DNA of 64,000 nucleotides, taken from positions 3,234,001 to 3,298,000 of the forward strand of contig OZ014413.1 of the NCBI GenBank assembly GCA_963965975.1, in the 5' to 3' direction. Source of the stretch: Xestospongia bergquistia (Eukaryota; Porifera; Demospongiae; Haplosclerida; Petrosiidae). Under the pieces are notes generated by a model. It ran no database searches and was not told where the DNA came from. It worked only from the letters and a program-made list of their open reading frames with translations. Positions 1-24,640 of this stretch are shown in pieces. Position 1 is the first letter of the stretch. Every line of letters starts with the position of its first letter. The position numbers were made by a program, and so were the translations under genes.

Positions 1-36
1 TTAGTAGTACATATCATATATGGTTATATTCTATAG

Positions 37-397
37 CTACTGATAAAGTATTAGTAGAGAAACAAGAAGAGATTAAGAAGTTAACCAGAGAGAATGAAGG
101 TGAGTTATATAGTAGTACATACCATATATGGTTATGTTCTATAGAGAAACAAAAAGAGATTGACAAGTTGACTAGAGAGAATGAAGGTGAGTTATATAGT
201 TCTATTAGTAGTACATGCCATGTATGGTTATGTTCTATAGAGAAACAAAAAGAGATTGACAAGTTGACTAGAGAGATTGAAGGTGAGGTATAGTATTGTT
301 AGTAGTACATACCATATATGGTCATGTTCTATAGCTACTGATACAGTATTAGTAGAGAAACAAGAAGAGATTGAGAAGTTGCCCAGAAAGAAAGAAG
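37..397 (+). repeat. Tandem coiled-coil exon array of gene C
   Basis: Four exon copies with their flanking introns repeat here. The full unit is 63 bp (37-99 and 335-397, reading ATDKVLVEKQEEI then KKLTREN). Two shortened 42-bp forms start directly at EKQKEIDKLT (145-186 and 241-282). Each is preceded by ctatag and followed by gtgag or gtaag. The same family occurs on the other strand at 4658-4950. Confidence 0.75.
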
Positions 398-1292
398 GTA
401 AGCTATAATACTGTTAGTAGTAAATCCCATATAATTATGATTAGCTGATGCTAGATGATATTTAAACCTATATTTAAGCCAATCACTGCATTTAACTTAT
501 AAAGACAAGCAAATACAGCTGATAAAACTATATGATTCACAGAACCATGCCATTTATAACATTACTATATACATGCACCAAGGAAAGGTTTCTACTAAAC
601 TAGTACAAAAGGTCCCAGATTTGATAAGTCAGTAGAAATTATATATAATTAGAAGTAAATGCTAAGAGCATAAAGGTGACTAACAAAGGTCAATATGAGG
701 GGAGAAGCAATGACACAATTATAGTGAATATACTTCATATGTAAAACACAATATCTGTTTATGCATGACTTGACAAAGTCTCTACTGACTGCAGTGATAA
801 TCTATACAATGCGACTACTGAAATTACACTAACATATCAGACAATCTATACCTACTACATACAGTAATTCTAGTAGTTACAAAGTTATTTGAAGGGTGGT
901 TAGGACTATATGGTATGATGTTGTATACTAATTTTATTGTTTAGATACAATTGCTTTCCATAAGTATGTACTGTTAGTAAAAGTAAATGATGTTTATCTG
1001 ACTTTAATACTTCTTCACAGAGGAAAAGCCTAAGAAACATGAATTGCTCAAGTCAATTTCTTCAATTAATAATATGTGGTATGAGCTTGGAGGTTATCTT
1101 GGAGTTGATACAAGCATTCTTGATGGCTTGTTAAAATCTACATATTCTGATGGTGTAAATATGTCAAAAATGTTGCAAAACTTTTTGGATAACCAACCAA
1201 CTCCTGCGACATGGAACAATATCATTAATGTTATAGAGAGACACCTACAAAAGAAAGCACTTGCTGATGAAATCCGTCAGAAAATTTATTAA
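37..1292 (+). CDS. Gene C: coiled-coil plus Death-like domain protein, 5' end outside window
   Basis: Partial gene. Short coiled-coil exons lie at 37-99, 145-186, 241-282 and 335-397; the terminal exon is 1021-1292, after the acceptor ttcttcacag. All are phase 1 at both ends and splice in frame. The last exon encodes about 90 residues starting EKPKKHELLKSI. It has the Death-domain spacing W..LGGYLGVD...LDGLL, then MLQNFLDNQP, TWNNIINVIE and ALADEIRQKIY before the stop. Death domains pair with each other in signalling scaffolds, so an intracellular adaptor or sensor role is likely (inference). The coiled coil probably oligomerises it. The gene runs convergently into gene A and shares intron sequence with it. 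The exon order is clear; the missing 5' part could carry any sensor domain. Confidence 0.6.
398..1020 (+). other. Intron of gene C
   Basis: No coding exon was recognised. The first 120 bases match, in inverted orientation, the gene A intron around 4520-4630 (shared blocks gatgatat, cactgcatttaact and aaagacaagcaaata). Confidence 0.45.
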
Positions 1293-2280: not shown

Positions 2281-4267
2281 TTATAAAAGGTCTGTTTCCA
2301 TGTTCTCAGCTATAGATCTAAATACCTCTAATTTCTTTAGAATATTAATTAATCTTTGTAATAACTGGGGCTGTGTATTTATAGAGGTCATTAAACCTCT
2401 CATTAATAGGACACCTTTTTCCATTTCAGTCTTTGGAGCATTATCTGTAGCACTATTGTAACACTCCAATGTAATGAGTCGAGCACTGAACAGTTCATTT
2501 GCTAGAGGTAATCTGTTATTAGAATCAGATACAAGATATGATAAATCAGCATAATGGGTCCTAAACACTTCTTCTGGAGAGGAATGACCTGTCAATTAAA
2601 TTATCACACTCACTATTAGCTATTAATAATAAATGATAGAATATATCACATACCTCTATCTTGTGTAGTCTCATTAGCTGATCCTGTACTAGATGTTTCT
2701 TCTTAAAAAGAACATGACTATACATCAAATAATTTAATGGATTACTTACCATTTCTACTATTACCAAGAGATCGTATAATGTATATCTTCCTGTTAACTG
2801 GTTTGATTCCTCTCAATGGTATACCATATTTTATTTCAGTCACTGTATCAGGTCCATGTTTAGCAGACACTGTGATCAGTATAGAAGGACAAGATGGAGG
2901 ATCTTCAGACCCAAACATGTCCACATCATTTTTGTATAAGATCTGCAAAAATTATCCATTAACACATGCACATCTATTAATATCTTACCACTGGATCTTG
3001 GTGAGGGTAGACATTCCATCCATTAAAAGGATGTTCTTGTTCTTCATTAAGGATTAATTCAATGTAACTATCACCTTCAAATGTGAAGTATAAGCGAACA
3101 TCTTTGTCAACATCAGATGGAAAAAATGTCTCTATATACTATACATACATTATATTATAATATATAACTCTATTAGTGTTTTACTAACCTCTAGCAAAGC
3201 ATTGAGACGTTTAGCAACCATGAAGTGCATTAACCATTTGGTACCATGACATTTAACCTCATATACTGTCTGAGCTACATACTTGTTATCAGGAAATGGT
3301 TTGTTAACAAGAGACTCATCTAGAGAGAAATATAGGTATCAATATTATTAAAACAGATAGTCTACCTTTTGTTTGAGACTGCTTATTAAGTAGAGTAGAT
3401 GAGTAAGGAAGCTGTGGACTAGGTTCTAGACTAGATATATCTACAGAGCTAGGCTTATTATCAGTTGGTGAAGAGGGGGTCAGCAACTTCAGTCTGTCTA
3501 TGGATATGAAGCCAGAACTCATTACAGGTGAATCGCCTATAAAGAGAATATAATTGAAATAGCATATCTTTGTATTTAGCATACCTTTTGCTGGACTGAG
3601 TTCATTCCCATACTCTTGAGTAGGTGGTTCAAGTGCATCAAAATATTCATCATCAGATGATGATCCACTACTTGCAGGATATTGAAACAATTTCATGATA
3701 TATTTGACAATAGCCTTAAAAGAGAAATGTGAAAGATAGATGCTGCCATACTGATCACCAGGGAAGAACGTTCCTCCATCTTCTAGCTCAAATTGATAAG
3801 GGAGTTCACTATTAAAAGGAGCTGTAACAAAGCTCAGATAAGTGGTATGATCTTCAGTAAGTAGATCTGCACAGTGCTGTATTTCAAATTTAACTGATTT
3901 GAGTAATGGCTTAGACACAGATATACCATAAACAGCACTGATTAACTCCGTCCCTTCAGGTAATTGAAACTGTCCACCCACTAGTGCTCTCACAGCAACA
4001 TCACTGGTGTCTAATGGAGACAAAGTGCCTTCAGAAACAGCAATTTTCAATCCAAATTGTTCCCAATTGAAGGACTGAGAAAAGTCTCCTTGAATATGAA
4101 ACAACTTCTCACCTCCAACATACATACCTTTAAGAGTATCTAAACAGCAAGAATTTAAAGACAATCTAGTATGATTTTAATACCATTTGATGGGATAAGA
4201 TAGTTAAATTGCACAGAAGCATCTTGTTTATCTACAATCACACTCTCCTTTGCAATTTGAAATAATT
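2281..4267 (-). CDS. Gene A 3' block: ZU5, UPA-like and CARD-like exons
   Basis: Eight exons with consistent phases. The ZU5 exon (3585-4139) shows LVGGQFQLPEGTELISAVYG, then FEIQHCADLL, FELEDGGTFFPGDQYG and the closing SHFSF. HFS lies at 3721-3729. The next exons (2750-3319) have no introns of odd phase. They contain YEVKCHGTKWLMHFMVAKRL, DVRLYFTFEGDSYIEL and CPSILITVSAKHGPD, a beta-rich region in the UPA position; calling it UPA rests on position. The last exon has about 100 residues: EEVFRTHYADLSYLV, ANELFSARLI, then amphipathic helices and the stop. This is the CARD/death-fold pattern also seen in gene B exon 3. ZU5-UPA pairs pack together and can mask a C-terminal death-fold domain. Confidence 0.65.
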
Positions 4268-5564
4268 CTATCAAGAAATAGATACAAATGTAACTAATGT
4301 CATATATGTAATATATGATCTAATGTTTGCTACAATGTTTCTAAAAACAAAGAAAAGCAATAAATGTAGTACTACAACAACTGCACAATATAATGGCTAC
4401 TGCATCTACCTGTATAAAAGAACAAATATAGACAAGATATTGATTATTGACAATACCAAAACTACTACATGCTAACAGTAGCATATATCAAAAATAAGTC
4501 AACCTAAGATTAAAGCTAAAAGTCCTTTTTCTTGGCTATATTTGCTTGTCTTTATCAGTTAAATGCAGTGAATGGTATACTAATATAGGCTTATATATCA
4601 TCTAACACTTGCTAATCACAATATGATATATATACTACTAACAGTACTACTACTCACCTTCTTTCTCTCTGGTCAACTTGTCAATCTCTTCTTGTTTCTC
4701 TACTAATACTCTATCAGTACCTATAGAATATAACCATATATAGTATGTACAACTAACAGTATTATAGCTCACCTTCTTTCTCTCTAGTCAACTTCTCAAT
4801 CAATTCTTTGGTCTCTATTAATACTTTCTCAGTAGCTATAGTACAAAAACAGATACGGTATGTACTACTAACTGTACTCTAGCTTACCTTCTTTCTCTCT
4901 GGTTAACATCTCAATCTCTTCTTGTTTCTCCATTAATACTCTATCAGTAGCTACAGAACATAAGCATATATGGTATGTACTATTATTAAGAGTACTCTAG
5001 TTTACCTTTCTCTCTGGTTATTTTCTCAATCTCTTCTTGTTTATGTGATAAAGTGTTTGTTGTTGATTGCTCTTGTTGTTGTTCCCTGTCTATACTCGTA
5101 TGATCTATTTAAACAAAAATCTTTTAGAGATTTGTAAGAACATGGCCACAGGGCATGAATAAATGAATGAACACTGCAACATCGAGTATGACCAATCATG
5201 ATTCAAAGGCTCAATGCTTGCTTATTTGCATATTAATATAATATATGTAGCATTTATAGTCTTATACAGACACAAAGCTCTAGTCAATGTTTCATTGCAA
5301 AGTCAGTATTTTGCAAAGCAATTATAGAACAGTTTTTCCAAATACAATCTTGCTATTAGGTATACTTTATCTAAATGCAAGTAAAGATTAAAATCAAAGC
5401 ATAGAAAATTAGTAACTCTAAAAGTTATAGGCTTATAGTATCCTTCCTACATTATATTTATGTATTAATGTATTATATTTTTATACCTTCCTCTTCTTCC
5501 AGACATACATATTGTGTTATTAGATATTTTGCTAATTATATATATATACATATATATATGTAAT

Positions 5565-5613
<49 letters not shown>

Positions 5614-6674
5614 ATTTATATATACAAATGTATGTGTGTGTGTGTGTGTGAGTGTATAAATGTATAGCATTTCATTATAACATCATATGCATAATTACCA
5701 TATCAAAATAATCATAAGACAACAGTTACAAATATAGTTTGTTTAAATAAACACATATAACACATACCAGCTCCACTTGGCTCTTCCTTTACAAAATAAA
5801 GTCTATCTTTAATTGACTTGGGAAGAGTCTTGCAAATCTTCTCATGTTGTTCAGATAATACGAGTTTTTGTATTTTGGTATTGTTAGCTAGTTCATCACA
5901 AATTGTCTTGATATTATCACCTTTTAGTAAAGTATTACGAAGATATAGTGTTTCCAACGATTTAGTTGCTTTTATTAAGTCAACTATTGCACTGGTACTA
6001 TCTGAAGTGATGTGAAGGTTACTAGTGAATGCTAATAAAGTCACTGTTTGGTTTTTAGTGAGGCCTTTACAAATATTTTTGACGCCATTGTCAGTGATGT
6101 CACAGTTAGAGAGATCTAGTGTTTGCAGTGTCGTATTATGTTTTAACATGTTAGACAGGTGATCTGTATCTTCATCTGTAATGGGAACATACCACATCAA
6201 TAATGCTTCCAGTGAAGTGTTAGTAATGAGAGCATCACTAAGTTGTATGATACCACCAGTAGGGAGAGTGAGGTATTTAAACATTAGTTTCTTCACTTTA
6301 GTAAATTTCTTTGACAACATCAACATACACCTACTGTCCAGTGTTGTGTCGTCTATGCAAAGTTCCCTCACAGAGAACTTATCGAGATCACTAATAATTA
6401 TGAGGGCATTTTCAGGAGATGATGAACGAAGCTCAATACGCCATTCTTTTCCTGGTTGGTCTTCTTTTATCAATCTACTCACGATATTTCTGCATTGTTT
6501 AGTAGTTGGTGAAATGATTAAAACACTGCTGTCATCATCTCTCCACTCAACTCTCTCAACTCTTCCTTTATCTGGACCCTGCAGTGAACCTGAGAAAAAA
6601 TTATTAAATTATCAGTGTACTTATAATTTAAACATATTATGTTTCTGGATATTTTATGAAATATGATGATAAAC

Positions 6675-6738
<64 letters not shown>

Positions 6739-9691
6739 TATACATATACAGGGTTTCATTTCCAAAAAATGTAGCAAGGACGCAAAATTTAACTTTGAAA
6801 ATCTTAACAATGGAGATGACTTGTTAGTAGTAATCAATAATTGCATAATAAATTATTATCCTATAAATAAATTGGCAATATTGTGGTTTAGCTATAAATC
6901 AATTATCACCAACAAATTTGTAACAAGACATATTAAAAATGACGTTGTCACATTATTGGCAGTTATTAATCTGATAGTATAGAACTATAATTTGACTTGA
7001 GAACCCTAATTAGCTCAAAATTGCAATAGAGTTGTTACCTATCAAACTTTCAGATAAAAATTGTTGACATTTTAAGAACAACCTACACAAGTTGCTATTT
7101 CACTTTGTTCTTGCTTTTATTTGTGTCTCATGTATTCTGATCATTTTATATTTACATAAAAATAAAGCACTAAATTGTCAAAGGGGGGAGGGGCAAATGC
7201 CCTCCACCCCCACCCCTAAATGAAACCTTGATATATATATATATAGCATTTCATTATGACATGACATGCATATGCATCACCACTATGAAAATAATAATAT
7301 GAAAAACAATGACAATACAACATACTAGTTCCAATTGGCTCTTCCATTACAAAATAGACTCTGTCTTTAATAGACTTGGGAAGACTCTTACAAATCGTCT
7401 CATTTTGTTCGGATAATACAAGTTTTTGTATTGTGGTGTTGTTAGCTAGTTGATCACAAACTGTCCTGATATTATCACCACTTAGTAAAGTGTTGCGAAG
7501 ATATAGTGTTTCCAATGATTTATTTGTGTTTATTAAGTCAACTATTGAACTGGTACTATCTGAAGTGATGTGAAGGTTATTGCTGAATGCTAATATAGTA
7601 ACTGTTTGGTTTTTAGTGAGGCTTTTACAAATATTTTTGACGTCATTATCACTTATGTCACAGTTGGAGAGATCTAGTGTTTGCAGTGTCGTATTAAAAC
7701 TTAACATGTTAGAGAGATGAGTTGTATCTTCATACGTAATAGGAACATGCCACAACAATAATGCTTCCAGTGAAGTGTTAGTAATGAGAGCATCACTAAC
7801 TTGTTTGATACCACCAGCAGGGAGAGTAAAGTGTTTAAACATTAGTTTCTTTACTTTTGCAAATTTCTTTGACAACGTTGACATGCACATACTGTCCAGT
7901 GGAGTGTTGTCTATACAAAGTTCCCTCACTGATAACTTATCAAGATCACTAATAATTATGAGGGCATTTTCAGGAGATGATGAACGAAGCTCAATACACC
8001 ATTCTTTTCCTGGTTGTTTTTCTTTTATCAATCTATTCACGATATTTCTGCATTGTTCAGTAGTTGGTGAAATGGTTAAAACTCTGTTTTCATCATCTCT
8101 CCACTCAACTCTCTCAGTGTCTCCTATTATAAAACAGATATGATATACACACCTGGACTGGGGTCAATTACATTTAAATGTAATTAATTACAATTACAAA
8201 TTATAATCTGTCAAATACAAATACAATTACAATTACTCCTTGATATTCTATTTGTAATTACATATACAACAACATTACTGCTTGATGATTTTATTAACTT
8301 TAATCAGTAGCAGGCTAGCAGCAGTAGTAAAAGAACAGCAAGAGTAAAAGACCAGCATCAAACAGCTACTTTTATAATTCAAATTTTAAAAGAAGCTGAA
8401 TTTAGAATATTTGCATGTGTTGCTGTATTAATAATGTACTAATGTGTAGTTTTGTAGTATAATGTGCAAACTGACCAAACCAACCAGTGTATTGTGTGTA
8501 ATTACATGTAATTACAATAACAGTGACATCAATTTAATTACAATTACAATTATTAATATCTGATAATACTCAATTACAAACACAATTACAATTACAATGA
8601 AAATGTAATTAATTACCACTAATTACCAATTACAATGTAATTGACCCCAGCCCTGATACATACACAGTTAAATATACTGATTCTACAAGACGCAAATGAG
8701 ATTAAGGTTTCCTGTTTATATTTACATTTGTATACAAGGCATTTGAAGAGTCAAGTTGCTACATTCATTATCTATGACTTTAAAAGCAGATTGTGTCATC
8801 CAATTGTTTTTCCCAATATAACATTATGACAACATTATAACGTTAACATTATTATATTATTATTATTATATCACATGATATATTAACATATGACATTAAT
8901 TATCAATATGAAAGATTTGTCACATTGCTTTAACTAAGTTCGTAAGTTTAAATGATTTGATTCACTCCATGCAAAGCCAAAACATGATCTCTAGCAGATT
9001 TTACCTAACCTTGAATGTTTTACCATACAAGACTATGCATGTTGCTAAGTTACCAATATTACTATAACTGTCATTATTTACTAGCTTACGTTTTGGTCCA
9101 TACTTAAACAAAATTCTCTTTGCCATATTTTCAAATCCTTTCCGTAACAAACCATCTATGTCATCAAAAGTAAGGTCATCCATCCGATGCCATCCCAGAA
9201 CAAACACGATCTCCTCATATTTGAGAAAAGATGATGAGCCTGTTATTAAATTTTTCTTTACCACAACATCACGTCTAAATTCCTCACAGATCTCATCAAC
9301 TGCTGATTTGTAGGTTGTAATGTGAGATCTGACATTTTCAATGTTGTAATGGTCAACAATAGCCTCGAAACAGGCAATGTTAATTACAGTGCAACTCTCT
9401 TTCATTGTTGTCATAACATCCTCAAATGATTCAACTATATATAGTTGTGGTGCTAGCTTATTGAAATGTTTTACAAGAAACATCTTGACATCTTCGAGTG
9501 AAGGGATACCCCTAGCAATAAGTGGTACAATAGTATGAGTAAGTTCTTCAAATTTCGCTTTTATTTTATCGAAGTGATACTTGTAAGCAGAAGATAGATG
9601 AAGCTTTATTTTACGACCTAACAATGTAGATAAATATCCCGTTGAGACAATATAAAATTTTACACTCACCTAGACGTTCCTCAGTTGCCAT
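2281..9691 (-). CDS. Gene A: N-domain/LRR/coiled-coil/ZU5/UPA-like/CARD-like sensor (18-exon model)
   Basis: Proposed exons in transcription order: 9670-9691, 9090-9617, 7326-8123, 5768-6589, 5006-5104, 4888-4950, 4773-4835, 4658-4720, 4184-4267, 3585-4139, 3366-3536, 3189-3319, 2989-3129, 2750-2942, 2654-2701, 2281-2588. Optional small exon: 5487-5531. Without it the sum is 4089 nt, about 1362 residues, and every junction keeps frame. Order: start MATEERLG and a domain shared with gene B (about 1-183), LRR blocks (184-723), coiled coils (724-819), ZU5 (about 850-1000), UPA-like region (about 1090-1250), CARD-like end. PIDD1 (LRR-ZU5-UPA-DD) and NLRP1 (LRR-FIIND-CARD) have this logic, so an intracellular danger sensor is inferred. 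The 3' half, from 5104 down, is the firmest. Joining the 9.0-9.7 kb exons and the LRR exons to it is less certain; they could be separate transcripts. Confidence 0.5.
4658..5104 (-). repeat. Tandem coiled-coil exons of gene A
   Basis: Exons 4658-4720, 4773-4835 and 4888-4950 are each exactly 63 bp, phase 1 at both ends. They read (A/G)T(D/E)(R/K)VL.E followed by a charged heptad pattern and LTREKEG. Exon 5006-5104 (99 bp) starts DHTSIDREQQQ and ends with the same heptads. Its DHTSID start matches gene B exon 15238-15285 (AHTSMDENQS), tying the two genes together. Each 63-bp unit adds 21 residues, three heptads, so unit gain or loss keeps coiled-coil register. Confidence 0.75.
5487..5531 (-). 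CDS. Possible small exon of gene A
   Basis: A 45-bp open segment between acceptor attag and donor gtataa, phase 1 at both ends, reading AKYLITQYVCLEEEEG. It would splice in frame between LRR exon 5768-6589 and the coiled coils. Support is only open frame plus splice sites. Confidence 0.25.
5535..5656. repeat. Compound microsatellite (TA)n (AC)n (TG)n
   Basis: Runs of ta, then acacac, tatata and tgtgtg. The AC and TG tracts are complementary, so the block can fold into a hairpin. It lies in the intron after an LRR exon. Confidence 0.8.
5768..6589 (-). CDS. Leucine-rich-repeat exon, copy 1 (gene A)
   Basis: A single 822-bp exon, phase 1 at both ends (acceptor ttttttctcag, donor gtatgt), 274 residues. 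After a lead-in with RVERVEWRDD come repeated ribonuclease-inhibitor-type LRRs: LEALLMWYVPI, LQTLDLSNCDITDNGVKNIC, LETLYLRNTLLKGDNIKTIC and IQKLVLSE. LRRs of this kind in NLR and PIDD proteins sense ligands or keep the protein inactive. The block is a tandem duplicate of 7326-8123, including flanking intron sequence (tatagcatttcatta at both). No NACHT ATPase was found, so this is not a complete NLR. Confidence 0.7.
6677..6748. repeat. (TA)n microsatellite
   Basis: About 70 bases of alternating ta with a few tac interruptions, directly next to the left end of the element at 6749. Confidence 0.9.
6749..7230. mobile_element. Non-autonomous inverted-repeat element between the LRR exons
   Basis: The ends are inverted repeats: cagggtttcattt at the left, and cAaggtttcattt on the complement of the right end. 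Both flanks are TA-repeat, so a TA-type target duplication fits but cannot be delimited. The interior has no transposase. Near the right end, 7184-7216 is unusually G/C-rich for this window. A MITE is the likely class; the superfamily is unknown. Confidence 0.45.
7326..8123 (-). CDS. Leucine-rich-repeat exon, copy 2 (gene A)
   Basis: A 798-bp open exon, phase 1 at both ends (acceptor tataatag, donor gtatgt), 266 residues. It closely follows copy 1 from ERVEWRDDENRVL through KEEPIG-type residues. Repeats include LEALLLWHVPI, LQTLDLSNCDISDNDVKNIC, LETLYLRNTLLSGDNIRTVC and IQKLVLSEQNE. Differences cluster at variable LRR surface positions (for example YVPITDED versus HVPITYED), but this was judged by eye. 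The two copies may be used together or as alternatives; phase allows either. Confidence 0.7.
8153..8655. mobile_element. hAT-like MITE with 8-bp target duplication
   Basis: Left end ctggactggggtcaattaca; right end, on the complement, cagggctggggtcaattaca. The flanks are atacacac (8145-8152) and atacatac (8656-8663), a 7/8 match as expected for an 8-bp hAT target duplication. The interior is built from aattacaattac-type repeats and has no coding capacity. CAGGG-type ends with an 8-bp duplication are typical of hAT elements. Confidence 0.6.
9090..9691 (-). CDS. First exons of gene A: start and conserved N-terminal domain
   Basis: Exon 9670-9691 encodes MATEERL and ends at gtgagt. After an intron of about 52 bp (acceptor acattgttag), exon 9617 downward continues in frame. 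The domain is all-helical by composition: HFDKIKAKFEELTHTIVPLI, then IPSLEDVKMFL, VESFEDVM, CTVINIACFEAIVDHYNI and EIVFVLGW. The same motif order occurs in gene B at 15496-16178, where IPSLQELKTFL, AESFDDVM, CTIINIVCLEAIVDTFNI and VEFVLEW are seen. I do not recognise a named family. Compared with gene B it lacks the C-terminal 60-70 residues. It may end at the TAA at 9001-9003 as a short protein, or splice from cgtaag at 9089 into the LRR exon. Confidence 0.55.
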
Positions 9692-13017: not shown

Positions 13018-16000
13018 CTAAAGAGGAGTAGCAGAAGACCCCTCACTAGGTAATACAATATTTATGGGAGATGGGGAACGGTGCTTATTACCAGGGTAGG
13101 TCATGTGGTTAGGAGATGATGACTGTGGAAGTAAAGGAGTCGGGCTGGAGTCTCTATCAGATAACGATAACTTCTTGTCTGAGGACACAGGATACATTAT
13201 ATGATAATTAGTTAAATGCAAAGTTTTCCTTAATAGAGAACTGTTTCCAGTATCTGAAGATGAGTATACTCCCGATGAAGATGAGTCATCATATTTTTGT
13301 AGGTGGGGTGGTAACCTTTTTGGGAGAGTCTTTAGATTTGAGGGTATGATGGATTCCTCAGTAGCTAGACAAGGGTCAGAACAAGTAGAGTCATTGTCAT
13401 CAGAATTTACAGTCTCTTGTTTTGTTGGTATAGCATAAGATTGCAATGCAGCTTGTTTGAAGAACGTAGTCGAGAGGGGTATACCTGGAGTAGGAGTCAA
13501 GTCAGGCTCAGACAAAGAGACTTCCTTACCGATGGCACTTAAGGGTAACCTTTCAAATGTGTCATCTGTAGTACTATATTCATCATCAGTGACAGCTTTA
13601 CATGTCTGTCTTTTCCTACGATGTGTTCTCTCATCATCTTCAGTCTCAGTACTAGAAAAGATCAATTCCTCGTCATGTAAATGTGATGCTGAGTGTGAAC
13701 GCTGGCGTTCAAATTTAACCCCTAGACTATGCATGGGAGAACGAACTGGTGTTGGACGCTTCTCTCGTCTTCTGAGCTGTCTATGTCTTTCAGTATCAGG
13801 AGTCTGTATGTTTTTTATGGCTTCCTGAACCGCTTCCTGTCCATTACGTTCAACTATCTTCTCAAATTGTCTTTTGATGAGCTTACAAGTACCACATGTT
13901 TTGCGATTACTACAATTTTCATGTTGTAGAAATAACATAACTGTTAAGAGAATGTTGTCAGAAACTGGAGACCCAATATAATCACCAGCAGCTGGAATAG
14001 GGAGATTTTGAGGTCTAGCTTTCAAGAGTGTTTGATGATCTGGTTCTTCCAGAGGAGTGTTAGGCACTGAGTTAAAAGGCTCTGTCCCATTGGGACTAAT
14101 GGGAACGTTTTCCATAACTGGTGTTGGCATTTGAACACTGATTGCAGGGATCTCAACGGGAATAGATAGAGTAGAGGGTACACTGAGACTTGATTGATGA
14201 TAATGGTGATAAATAGTAGGATGGGAAGAGAGATCTGGATAACCATAACGTGGTACATCTTGGCTAAGATGACTGTGTGAAGTATAACATTGAGAAGGGT
14301 CTGATTCTAATGCAGCTGATTAAAACATTGCTATTACTATACTTTATTGCATACCTGATGAGTACCCACTTGATGATTGATTATCGTGTCTGGATACATA
14401 ACTATATTCTAATAATACAAGTAAACAACTAATGTAATTGACTGATAGTCTACCTTCCTTTATAACCTATCATTATTAGTAATTATTATTTGTAATATAT
14501 TCATCTAATACAAGAATATCTGAAGTTAATAATGTATGACGTTCTGTTTGCACATCACTGTATCCTAAGAATATATAGGTACTTTGATGACTACATTTGT
14601 GTGTATAGATATGCAATTGATCATGATAAGAGATCATAATTGTCTAAGCTGTAGGTACTACAAACTATAAGGAAACCTCCTTTACCATTAACTTACTTTT
14701 CTTTTGTTTGAAAGCAGACTTGAACTTTTCCATTACAAATGTTCTTGCTTTACTCATTTTATTCTGCATTTTAATGTTTCCTCTCAGCTCTGATTCCATT
14801 TGGCAGATCTTTTCATCTCTCTCCCTTAACTGTAAATTTAGTGATCTTATTTTCTCCTGTAGTATTTCTATTTCGTTTTCTTTGTCTACTAATTAAGTAA
14901 TAGACTGTTATAGCACTCAATGTATACAAACACACCTGATAAGTCCTTAGTTGAGGGCTCAGCTCTTCTCTCCATAATGCTAGGTTCTATAGTAAAATAT
15001 TATAATGCACACTGTCAAGTTGCTGAGTTAATAATCACAGTTATTTCTGTGTTCATTTCACCTTCAATGTTATCATGTGTAGACTTTAACTCTTGTATCT
15101 CCCTTTCTCTCTGTTGTAATGACTGTCTGACTGACTCCAGTTCTAATGTCTTTGCTTTACTCATTTTATCTAATAGTGTTAACTTCTCTGTTTACATTAG
15201 GTCTATACATGTAATACCTCTATTAATGTACATGTACCTGATAAAATGTCTGCTGTTGATTGATTTTCATCCATACTGGTATGAGCTAAATGGAAATATG
15301 TACATGTATTTTAAGACATTCCCACTATACAGAAGTATGTTTGAGTACATCATTTTTGTATATTGATACTCACCTTCAATATAAGACCTTAGCTCCTTTA
15401 CATCAGCTAATGCCTTTCTAGTCTTTTCCTCAAGGTCTTTCATATCCTATACACAACACTCACACACACATAATATAGTATTAATCACCTTTTACTTTAT
15501 CTTTTATACGTTCATCCCAGACAATTGAGTAGCCAATTGTTAACTTAATTAATCCCATCTTTTTCAGAAGATTAAGATTCTTCTCTGCTTCTATTAGTAA
15601 AACATCCATTATGTGTCGTGGAGCATAGCAGGTCACAATGATGGAGTTGCCTCTCTTTATTATTCTAATCTGTACTCGTTTTGTAATGTCTTTGAAGGCC
15701 TCTGTTAACAGATCTCTGATTTGAGTTAGAGTATAGTCATCTGGTTCCCATTCCAGAACAAACTCGACAGTTTCACATTTAAGAAGAGTAGATTGACTAG
15801 TTAAAAAACTTTGATTTTCACATACACTAAGTTTAACTTCATTACAAAATGCATCAATTGTTGCTTGATAGTCCTTAATGTGCTGCTTTGCTTCTGAGAT
15901 GTTAAATGTATCAACAATAGCCTCCAAACAGACAATATTAATAATGGTACATTTGTCTTCCACTAATTCCATAACATCATCAAATGATTCGGCTATAGAC

Positions 16001-17035
16001 AATTGAGGTTTTAGCTCACGGTAGCATCTTCGAAGAAATGTTTTGAGTTCTTGAAGTGATGGAATACTCTTAGTAATAAGAGGTGCAACAGTATGGATAA
16101 GCTTTCCAAAGGTCACTTTCATTTCATCAAATTTCTTTTGAAAGGATAACTCAAGAGATACTTTAGGGAACACTTGATCTAAGAACGTATTCTATAAAAA
16201 ATAATAACCGTAAATCACTTACCATACTCTTTGAGTATATCCTTTGCTACACGTACTGTGTCTTCTGATTGTAAAAGCACATTAGTGAAAACTCTTAACC
16301 TATTTGGATCCTCAGATACAGCACTAGACAGTGCTCTCAATGAACTATCAGCTAATAAACCTCCAGATATCTCCACCTCATTAAAAGTTTCCTTAGAAAT
16401 GACTCCCTCTGTATGTAGTGTTAGTGACACATCAGTTGGAAGAGAAACTGGAAACTGTCTGTGAAAATGTTTTCGTAACACTTGGTAAGCTGAAGTAGAC
16501 ACTTCATCTATTTGATGAAATGTAGAATATAATTATTAAAGTGTATTAATTTAGTGTCAGGCCCAGACAATCAACCAAGGTAGAACAGTGAACGACTCAC
16601 ACAAAGCTATTACTCACTTAATAACTTAGGTATTTTCATAGCAGCAGAAACTTCTCCTATCTTATTAAGTGCACTAGTTAATGACTCCACTGTAGGACCT
16701 CCACTCTCATCAACATTGTCAGCTCTACTCAACCATCGTGTCAAACAATCTTGTAGACATTCATCTGGATCATTATTGTACTTTGCTTTAATATCTGTCA
16801 GAGTAGGTTGTAGTAGACCCAGTTGTAGACCAAGAGGAGACCATCTGCTACTTGGGAAATGACTATCACTCAAAGTATTGACAATATCTTTCAAACAGCC
16901 GACCTCTATCGTTAATATATATATTAAATATAATTAAAGTATTAATTGATCTTTCAGGGGCAAATACCGATATTAAAGTTTAGAATAGAAACGTCACTTA
17001 CCTAATTGAATGTTTTCCATAGATCGTTCTGTCAT
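13018..17035 (-). CDS. Gene B: Death/CARD-like/N-domain/coiled-coil adaptor with Ser-rich tail
   Basis: Eleven exons: 17002-17035, 16618-16905, 16223-16507, 15496-16178, 15374-15446, 15238-15285, 15062-15187, 14936-14986, 14697-14888, 14355-14408, 13018-14315. They total 3132 nt (1043 residues) with unbroken frame. Start MTERSMENIQLG. Death domain at about 12-107 (RWSPLGLQLGLLQPTLTDIK, CLTRWLSR, LTSALNKIGEVSAAMKIP). CARD-like domain at about 108-202 (YQVLRKHFHRQF, LHTEGVISKETFNEVE, RVFTNVLLQ). The gene A-type N-domain spans about 203-430 and coiled coils 431-611. The tail of 430 residues is low-complexity, Ser/Thr/Pro-rich, with a short Cys cluster (HENCSNRKTCGTCKLIKRQF) and a Lys/Arg stretch. 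Two death folds plus coiled coil suggest a scaffold that links sensors to effectors (inference). Confidence 0.7.
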
Positions 17036-23786: not shown

Positions 23787-24640
23787 ATGAAACAAGAAGT
23801 GTTCTTCCATATATTGGTGGTGTCTAGTCTCGCAGTAGCAAGTCAAGAAGGTACTGTAAAAACAGTAGGTAATGATATGTTATTATATACTACACAGATA
23901 AAATAAGAAGTGATCTAACAAAGAGAGATGTAACAGGTCCACATGCTAATATCTCTCTCTGTGGCAAATCCCAATGTCTACAAGTATTGAGAGGTAGAGA
24001 AGGTATTGCAGGTAGAGATGGAGCAAAAGGTTTGAAAGGAGACAAAGGGGAAAATGGAATGAAAGGAGAACAAGGTCCTGTAGAACCACAAGGACCCAAG
24101 AGTGGTGGAGTCAGTTACATACGATGGGGTCAAATAACTTGTCCTACAGGTGCTACCTTAGTTTATAGTGGAAAGGTTGCAGGTAGTCATTACAGCAAAG
24201 GAGGAGGAGCAACTAATCACTTGTGTCTACCTTATGATCCAGAGTATTTGGAATATAAACCTGGCAAAAATAGTTGGGGTTCAAAAATATATGCAGCTAA
24301 ATATCAGGGAATTATTGGATCTCTATCTAGTCTTCATAATCACAATGTACCATGTGCAGTATGTTATGTCTCAAATCGTACAACAGTTCTCATGATACCA
24401 GCTAAAATAACTTGTCCTACATCATGGACTAAAGAATATCGAGGATATCTTATGGCTGAAAGGTTTGATTATAAACCTTCAACATATGAATGTATTGATG
24501 AACATTCTGTTGGTATATTAGGAAATATTACTAACACTGATGGAGCTCTTTTTCATCATGTTGAACCTCTGTGTTCTGGTGTACTTTGTCCTCCATATGA
24601 TGAAACTAAAGAGTTAGCCTGTGTGGTGTGTACCAAATAA
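23787..24640 (+). CDS. Short-chain (C4-type) collagen-like secreted protein
   Basis: Two exons, 23787-23850 and 23898-24640, with a 47-bp intron (gtactg...acacag); 268 residues. The N-terminus MKQEVFFHILVVSSLAVASQ is a signal peptide. A short Gly-X-Y stretch at about 68-106 (GREGIAGRDGAKGLKGDKGE and on) forms a triple helix. The C-terminal globular domain has Cys-rich duplicated halves: YIRWGQITCPTGATLVYSG, HNVPCAVCYV, then AKITCPTSWTKEYRGYLMAE and LACVVC. This C-terminal domain is characteristic of sponge short-chain collagen C4-like proteins, components of spongin-type extracellular matrix. The collagen stretch is short, with one imperfection (VEPQGP). A donor alternative at 23868 (gtaatg) would add six residues. 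Confidence 0.8.

Follow-up and report, generated by a model that had tools for sequence, protein, structure and literature searches.

NLRP1 and CARD8 are vertebrate sensors that become active when their own N-terminal half is degraded, a principle called functional degradation. PIDD1 is, to our knowledge, a protein without NACHT, and the GAIN domain of adhesion G protein-coupled receptors belongs to extracellular receptors, in which we know of no UPA or CARD. Here, these systems are compared with a minus-strand gene of the sponge Xestospongia bergquistia, located at positions 9691-2281 of the window, which is the whole stretch of 64,000 nucleotides analysed (GenBank assembly GCA_963965975.1, contig OZ014413.1, positions 3,234,001 to 3,298,000). 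The gene is proposed, with reasonable though not high confidence, to encode a cytosolic, NACHT-free ZU5-UPA self-cleaving sensor that would release UPA-CARD upon degradation of its N-terminal part, and to be one of a large repertoire. Gene structure (by paralogy), the ZU5-UPA fold (in a relative), the CARD fold, the conservation of the site and the modular family are supported by computation.

The accessible parts of D'Osualdo et al. (PMC3210808) describe cleavage at SF/S in CARD8 and NLRP1 and at HF/S in PIDD1 (the slash marks the cleaved bond), with the Ser being necessary and the Phe important. The window gene matches NLRP1 in having a C-terminal CARD after the FIIND, but NLRP1 contains NACHT, PYD and SF/S, whereas the 9691-2281 gene had no Pfam match to NACHT or PYD and carries a coiled coil, a TRADD-N-type exon and HF/S. 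Regarding the DPP8/9 binding of NLRP1, DPPIV_N gave eight short matches in the genome, all on one contig. CARD8 is likewise a NACHT-less ZU5-UPA-CARD protein with predicted UPA-CARD release, but a disordered N-terminal region precedes its ZU5 (PMC9213247, in part), where the window gene has leucine-rich repeats (LRRs) and the coiled coil. PIDD1 shares LRRs 5' of a ZU5-UPA-death fold and the exact HF/S, but contains several ZU5 domains and carries a Death domain at its C-terminus (PMC3210808, in part), in contrast to the single ZU5 exon and the CARD found here; at the sister locus L050, a Death-like exon (below cut-off) takes the place of the CARD. The ZU5-UPA-Death domain supramodule of UNC5 and ankyrins is the closest fold match, but its receptor or ankyrin part is absent from the window gene. 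The layout had been called PIDD1/NLRP1-like in a preliminary description of this DNA, of which the shared order held; a common layout does not make the gene an orthologue of either protein, and defining features of each are missing.

In Amphimedon, 357 TRADD-N proteins have been reported, with LRRs among the C-terminal partners and with ankyrin, SH3-LRR, kinase, MATH, caspase and other domains, but not ZU5, in the accessible list for this sponge; fusions of TRADD-N to FIIND and UPA-ZU5, for which self-cleavage was predicted, were placed in a DEDD2-like clade (Kaur et al., 2021, PMC8195603, in part). The Xestospongia family fits this prediction of autoproteolysis, and its N-terminal exon probably belongs to the same helical/TRADD-N family. 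ZU5 also occurs in immune-type genes of other early-branching animals, namely the NACHT-ZU5 genes of sponges and cnidarians (PMC12909245 and PMC8260672, in part; the former mentions them in one clause of its accessible text). A sponge ZU5-UPA-CARD family was not found described in the open-access literature and is not named in the accessible parts of PMC8195603.

Gene structure and paralogous loci

Manual splicing of the window yielded 16 exons encoding 1365 amino acids (aa) without internal stop codons, with GT-AG borders in all 15 introns and matching phases (phase 1 in nearly all), from the ATG at 9691 to the TAA at 2283-2281. The predicted protein contains, in order, an N-terminal domain, two LRR exons (Pfam LRR_6, E 1.3e-8), a coiled coil (exons 5-8, aa 724-819, phase 1), ZU5, UPA (three exons, aa 1090-1247) and CARD (Table 1). 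This splicing confirmed the LRR exons, the 63-bp coiled-coil exons, the order, coordinates, single strand and compatible phases given in the preliminary description, and supported its proposal of LRR, coiled coil, ZU5, UPA and CARD in one gene model without NACHT. By eye, none of the open frames of at least 22 residues in the four large introns resembled a skipped exon.

Table 1. Positions of the predicted exons and related features in the window.
Feature	Position	Strand	Basis and remarks
Exon 1	9670..9691	-	start ATG (MATEERL); donor GTGA, phase 1
Exon 2, N-terminal helical domain + probable first part of TRADD-N-like domain, aa 8-183	9090..9617	-	splicing, genome matches
Exon 3, LRR block 1, aa 184-449	7326..8123	-	Pfam LRR_6, LRR_1
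Exon 4, LRR block 2, aa 450-723	5768..6589	-	82% identity to block 1
Exon 5, coiled coil, 99 bp	5006..5104	-	splicing
Exon 6, coiled-coil unit, 63 bp	4888..4950	-	splicing
Exon 7, coiled-coil unit, 63 bp	4773..4835	-	splicing
Exon 8, coiled-coil unit, 63 bp	4658..4720	-	splicing
Exon 9, linker, aa 820-847	4184..4267	-	splicing; homologous stretch in paralogues
Exon 10, ZU5 domain, aa 848-1032	3585..4139	-	relatives' Pfam matches, modelled relative
HF/S motif, His985-Phe986-Ser987, predicted self-cleavage F/S	3721..3729	-	motif as in PMC3210808 (in part)
Exon 11, ZU5-UPA linker	3366..3536	-	splicing
Exon 12, UPA part 1	3189..3319	-	splicing, paralogues
Exon 13, UPA part 2	2989..3138	-	splicing, paralogues
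Exon 14, UPA part 3	2750..2942	-	splicing, paralogues, genome matches
Exon 15, short linker, 16 aa	2654..2701	-	splicing
Exon 16, CARD, aa 1264-1365, and TAA	2281..2588	-	AF2 model; Foldseek, VIA
Probable end of convergent sister gene	36..1292	+	coiled-coil matches 36-399, Death-like exon 1008-1292

The genome of the window (146 Mb, 21 contigs) was searched with exon queries, which gave lists of ZU5 (the best 150 of 309 candidates), N-terminal exon (the best 150 of 404, all of them matches), LRR (146 matches, the best 146 of 389), UPA exon 14 (92 matches) and CARD (44 matches); the neighbourhood counts below refer to the 150 listed ZU5 matches, 14 of which contain stops and at least three pairs of which are halves of a single exon. 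Within 5 kb of ZU5, UPA was found downstream in 70 cases and upstream in 2, CARD downstream in 17 and upstream in 2, the N-terminal exon upstream in 8 and downstream in 2, and LRR upstream on the same strand in 7 and on the opposite strand in 1. Within 8 kb, the respective numbers upstream, downstream and on the opposite strand were 12, 6 and 3 for the N-terminal exon and 8, 3 and 2 for LRR. The order N-terminal exon, LRR, ZU5 with steps of up to 8 kb occurred at seven loci including the window (six with 5-kb steps), among the matches listed.

These counts bear on the possibility that two adjacent genes, one with the N-terminal domain, LRRs and coiled coil and the other with ZU5-UPA-CARD, were wrongly joined. 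The gene model was derived from DNA; among the matches listed, no ZU5 lies within 5 kb of 46 N-LRR chains and 2 N-LRR-LRR chains, and most listed ZU5 matches have no LRR nearby. Moreover, the annotated Amphimedon relatives P0014, P0015 and P0018 begin at or shortly before ZU5, and LRRs were marked in none of 35 related proteins, in a search that reached proteins of up to about 906 aa only. Against this stand the six further colinear N-LRR-ZU5 loci (one ZU5 match with a stop and another partial), the ordered succession of N-terminal exon, LRR, coiled coil and ZU5 within 6 kb in L050 and L051, and the Amphimedon proteins P0009 and P0016, in which Kelch, a stretch that looks coiled-coil-like by eye and ZU5 lie in one predicted chain. 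Phases are also compatible and splice positions conserved: seven paralogous loci were compared, with the closest AG or GT in phase, up to 20 codons away, taken as the splice site. In exons 10-14, 21 acceptors and 20 donors, out of 25 each, lay without any shift at the homologous position and phase. For all exons together this held for 30 acceptors out of 45 and 35 donors out of 41, a count that excludes terminal donors and in which L050 and L051 each enter their one LRR exon under both LRR queries. Acceptor and donor of exon 3 occupy the homologous position in L050, L051 and L052. Wrong joining is thus considered very unlikely, and the 16 exons are supported by paralogy as one gene model; separate genes for the LRR exons and the ZU5 block, an outcome named in the preliminary description, were not found at the DNA level, where the two are colinear in paralogous loci.

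The ZU5 paralogues L010-L038 (29 loci) were examined together with 1.5 kb of sequence on either side. Exons 12, 13 and 14 were present 3' of ZU5 in 29, 28 and 29 loci, respectively, which bears out the UPA-position segment of the preliminary description; a homologue of the exon 9 linker lies 5' of ZU5 in 22 of the 29, and a CARD match (one of them weak) 3' of it in 7, the flank often being too short to reach the CARD. Among eight loci taken from the Pfam search (L001-L008), UPA exons were found in L002 and L006 only and ZU5 alone in L003, L004 and L007, while L001, L005 and L008 had no ZU5 or UPA exon match.

Selection was estimated from pairwise ratios of nonsynonymous to synonymous substitution rates (dN/dS) between the window and ten chosen loci, a rough method for such short exons. 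The values were 0.19-0.36 for CARD (n = 6), 0.25-0.65 for ZU5 (n = 10), 0.25-0.98 for UPA exon 14 and 0.31-1.40 for UPA exon 13. Towards L019 and L021, dS was 0-0.19 in the UPA exons as against 0.45-0.52 in ZU5, which makes a recent exchange likely. If the gene were a degenerating or functionless copy within a family grown by tandem duplication, held by recent duplication alone, this would fit the small differences between the UPA exons and the stops in 14 of the 150 listed ZU5 matches, but all 16 exons are open in the window and dN/dS is below 1 in all ten ZU5 and all six CARD comparisons; decay is rated very unlikely.

ZU5-UPA fold, candidate cleavage site and CARD

Searches of Pfam, NCBIfam and PDB sequences with the window ZU5-UPA-CARD region gave nothing useful. 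Since the sequences are too divergent for such searches, folds and paralogues were used instead. The ZU5 had been described as clear, and this stood in part: the window's own domain has no Pfam ZU5 match, whereas 7 of the 11 members of its alignment do match and an Amphimedon relative was modelled as a ZU5-UPA-helical bundle. The best Foldseek matches of this model were UNC5b and ankyrins, and NLRP1 and CARD8 also matched.

The preliminary description did not remark that Ser987 occupies the nucleophile position in the window ZU5, where HF/S is the exact PIDD1 motif. In the modelled relative, the scissile bond would follow strand 186-191 and precede strand 196-202, ahead of the final strand of the ZU5. 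In all 35 proteins similar to the window ZU5-to-CARD region, the residue after Phe is Ser (22 proteins) or Cys (13 proteins), and 35 of 38 genome loci, the window included, were alignable at the site, with Ser in 26, Cys in 9 and Phe before it (P1) in 30 (all but L024, L029, L031, L033 and L035); one gene may have been counted from two assemblies across these two sets, and some of the loci hardly differ from each other. The features of the self-cleaving ZU5-UPA type were thus found together, namely a ZU5 fold, UPA 3' of ZU5, and F plus nucleophile before the last ZU5 strand, and the ZU5 self-cleavage site of the window gene is apparently intact.

The top Foldseek matches could also suggest a non-cleaving scaffold, that is, a ZU5-UPA-death-fold supramodule as in UNC5b and ankyrin, working as a closed adaptor opened by a ligand, in which HFS would be incidental; the lack of the P1 Phe in 5 of 35 loci points the same way. 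However, UNC5b has a Leu where the Xestospongia family has Phe (PMC3210808, in part), all 35 related proteins retain F-[SC] between variable flanks, and Ser is replaced by Cys alone, both being usable nucleophiles. In addition, no match to ankyrin repeats or a receptor ectodomain was found in the 9691-2281 gene. A scaffold of this kind is considered unlikely.

The C-terminal bundle of the relative was barely covered in the fold comparison, and exon 16 of the window was therefore folded alone. The AlphaFold2 (AF2) model is a CARD (pLDDT, the predicted local distance difference test, 95.5), its top fold match was the CARD of a zebrafish GBP-NLRP1-like protein, and the Foldseek and VIA matches were CARDs for the most part, although exon 16 has no Pfam CARD match. 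According to this model, the C-terminal domain is a CARD of NLRP1/CARD8 type. The helical death-fold end of the preliminary description was borne out in CARD-like form, and the C-terminal fold lies within the death superfamily. Matches of RXLR_WY to CARD members (7 of 26, best E 6e-5) were set aside as an artefact of the helical pattern, as was that of the L053 CARD (E 0.012, below cut-off). L053 may be one CARD-caspase gene, a lead that its exon phases neither support nor contradict; a CARD exon lies next to a caspase exon at C3:1233683-1235755.

For the self-cleaving sensor, a three-step mechanism can be proposed. The ZU5 would cut its own chain at His985-Phe986/Ser987 during folding, as suggested by motif and fold; the piece with N-terminal domain, LRR, coiled coil and ZU5 would, as in NLRP1 and CARD8, stay non-covalently on UPA-CARD and silence it; and attack on or degradation of the LRR-bearing half would free UPA-CARD, whose CARD may nucleate a CARD complex, probably with a caspase. 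A NACHT oligomerisation engine would play no part. Sensing, cleavage, masking, release and caspase recruitment, as well as a role in immunity or self-recognition, are what we infer for this protein. The sponge gene offers a simple testable system for self-cutting of ZU5-UPA-CARD at HF/S and for activation of a sponge caspase by the freed CARD.

Apparent exchange of sensors and outputs

The listed ZU5 matches lie in part 3' of LRR or Kelch exons and in part 5' of CARD or Death exons. Kelch-type sequence (125 matches, among the best 150 of 303 candidates) was found within 5 kb upstream of ZU5 in 27 cases, with none downstream or antisense, and within 8 kb in 28 upstream and 12 downstream; in Amphimedon, P0009 and P0016 combine Kelch and ZU5 in one predicted protein. 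In contrast to the NACHT-ZU5 genes of PMC12909245 and PMC8260672 (in part), which carry NACHT, none of the 150 listed ZU5 matches had one of the 95 listed NACHT matches (among the best 103 of 156 candidates) within 8 kb.

The output end varied as well. L050 has the N-terminal exon, LRR, coiled coil, ZU5 and UPA, after which comes a Death-like exon that reached E 0.033 with Pfam Death, below cut-off, and had no match in PDB, and at C3:291542 a Death exon 87% identical to it lies at the same distance 3' of UPA; a Death exon of this type occurred within 3 kb downstream of 8 and upstream of 1 of the 150 ZU5 matches, among the matches listed. In L051 the N-terminal exon, LRR and coiled coil are followed by a ZU5 of 36% and a CARD of 78% identity, the UPA being recognised by eye only. 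The parts for sensor, fuse and output thus seem to be swapped at the level of exons. With copies of the tail placed behind LRR or Kelch sensors, and with either a CARD or a Death-like domain at the end, the window gene would belong to a large repertoire of proteins that differ in their sensor but share the release switch.

Tentatively, and with somewhat less confidence than doubt, the sponge may hold over 100 self-cleaving sensors without NACHT, each of which joins a conserved ZU5-F/[SC]-UPA fuse to interchangeable LRR or Kelch detectors and CARD or Death outputs. If so, this early-branching animal would use functional degradation as a main strategy of immunity or self-recognition, and the architectures of NLRP1/CARD8 and PIDD1 would represent two examples from an older set of freely combined parts. 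A sponge gene that shares tail, cleavage motif and CARD with these sensors but lacks NACHT, together with a large family of swapped sensors, would mean that the trick is old or was invented repeatedly, and that it is workable as a diversified repertoire.

Contig C11 has 12 exons that lie among caspase matches and share 62-70% identity with the L050 Death exon, but the idea that caspase prodomains use this exon was dropped, since one unit there (L054, C11:6465800-6475000) showed, by eye, caspase-like exons without SGHG/ACRG, a ROCO-like GTPase, a Death exon and a CARD-like exon. From the translations of this one stretch, L054 and the array around it look like tandem units of this kind. In L051 (C3:3218900-3225000, minus strand), the divergent ZU5 exon runs into a long hydrophobic stretch rich in Gly, Ala and Val, possibly a membrane hairpin.

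N-terminal exon family and neighbouring genes

Pfam NCOA6_TRADD-N (PF13820) had four genome matches at E up to 1, all of which overlap the N-terminal exon family and are below the cut-off; three of these four exons, scanned singly, had PF13820 as best match (E 0.005-0.006), which is not independent evidence. The neighbour exon 15484-16191 (minus strand) is about 40% identical to exon 2, in agreement with the earlier claim that the N-terminal domain also occurs in the neighbouring gene, and aligns with those three exons through the GNS turn, although its full length gave no PF13820 match. Exon 2 of the window gene ends before the GNS turn of the longer copies, and the TRADD-N tail of the neighbour had no convincing match in the four large introns. 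Exon 2 encodes a helical domain plus, probably, the start of an NCOA6-type TRADD-N domain, seemingly incomplete. The N-terminal exon family (window 9091-9615, minus strand) also matched uL30/ribosomal protein L7 profiles (6 of 9 in PDB, best E 6.7e-4; NCBIfam E 0.077), which is probably due to chance but is unexplained. On contig C4, at about 8.4-9.6 Mb, there is a large array of N-terminal and LRR exon matches, in which none of the 150 listed ZU5 matches lies.

The neighbouring gene (14665-16933, minus strand) comprises a Death domain at 16610-16933 (E 1.5e-4, just below cut-off), a small frame at 16215-16532, the helical and TRADD-N-like exon, and coiled-coil-rich frames. To the left of the window, L052 (C3:3228000-3234100, plus strand) contains an N-terminal exon and two LRR exons 85-89% identical to those of the window gene, and together with the exons at window 36-1292, of which the Death-like one reached E 0.014 (below cut-off), it may form one convergent sister gene; no ZU5 was found in L052 or window 36-1292. 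Finally, a frame on the plus strand at 23876-24640 contains collagen repeats (Pfam Collagen E 8.8e-4, below cut-off) and a C-terminal part with cysteines, and presumably resembles short sponge collagens.
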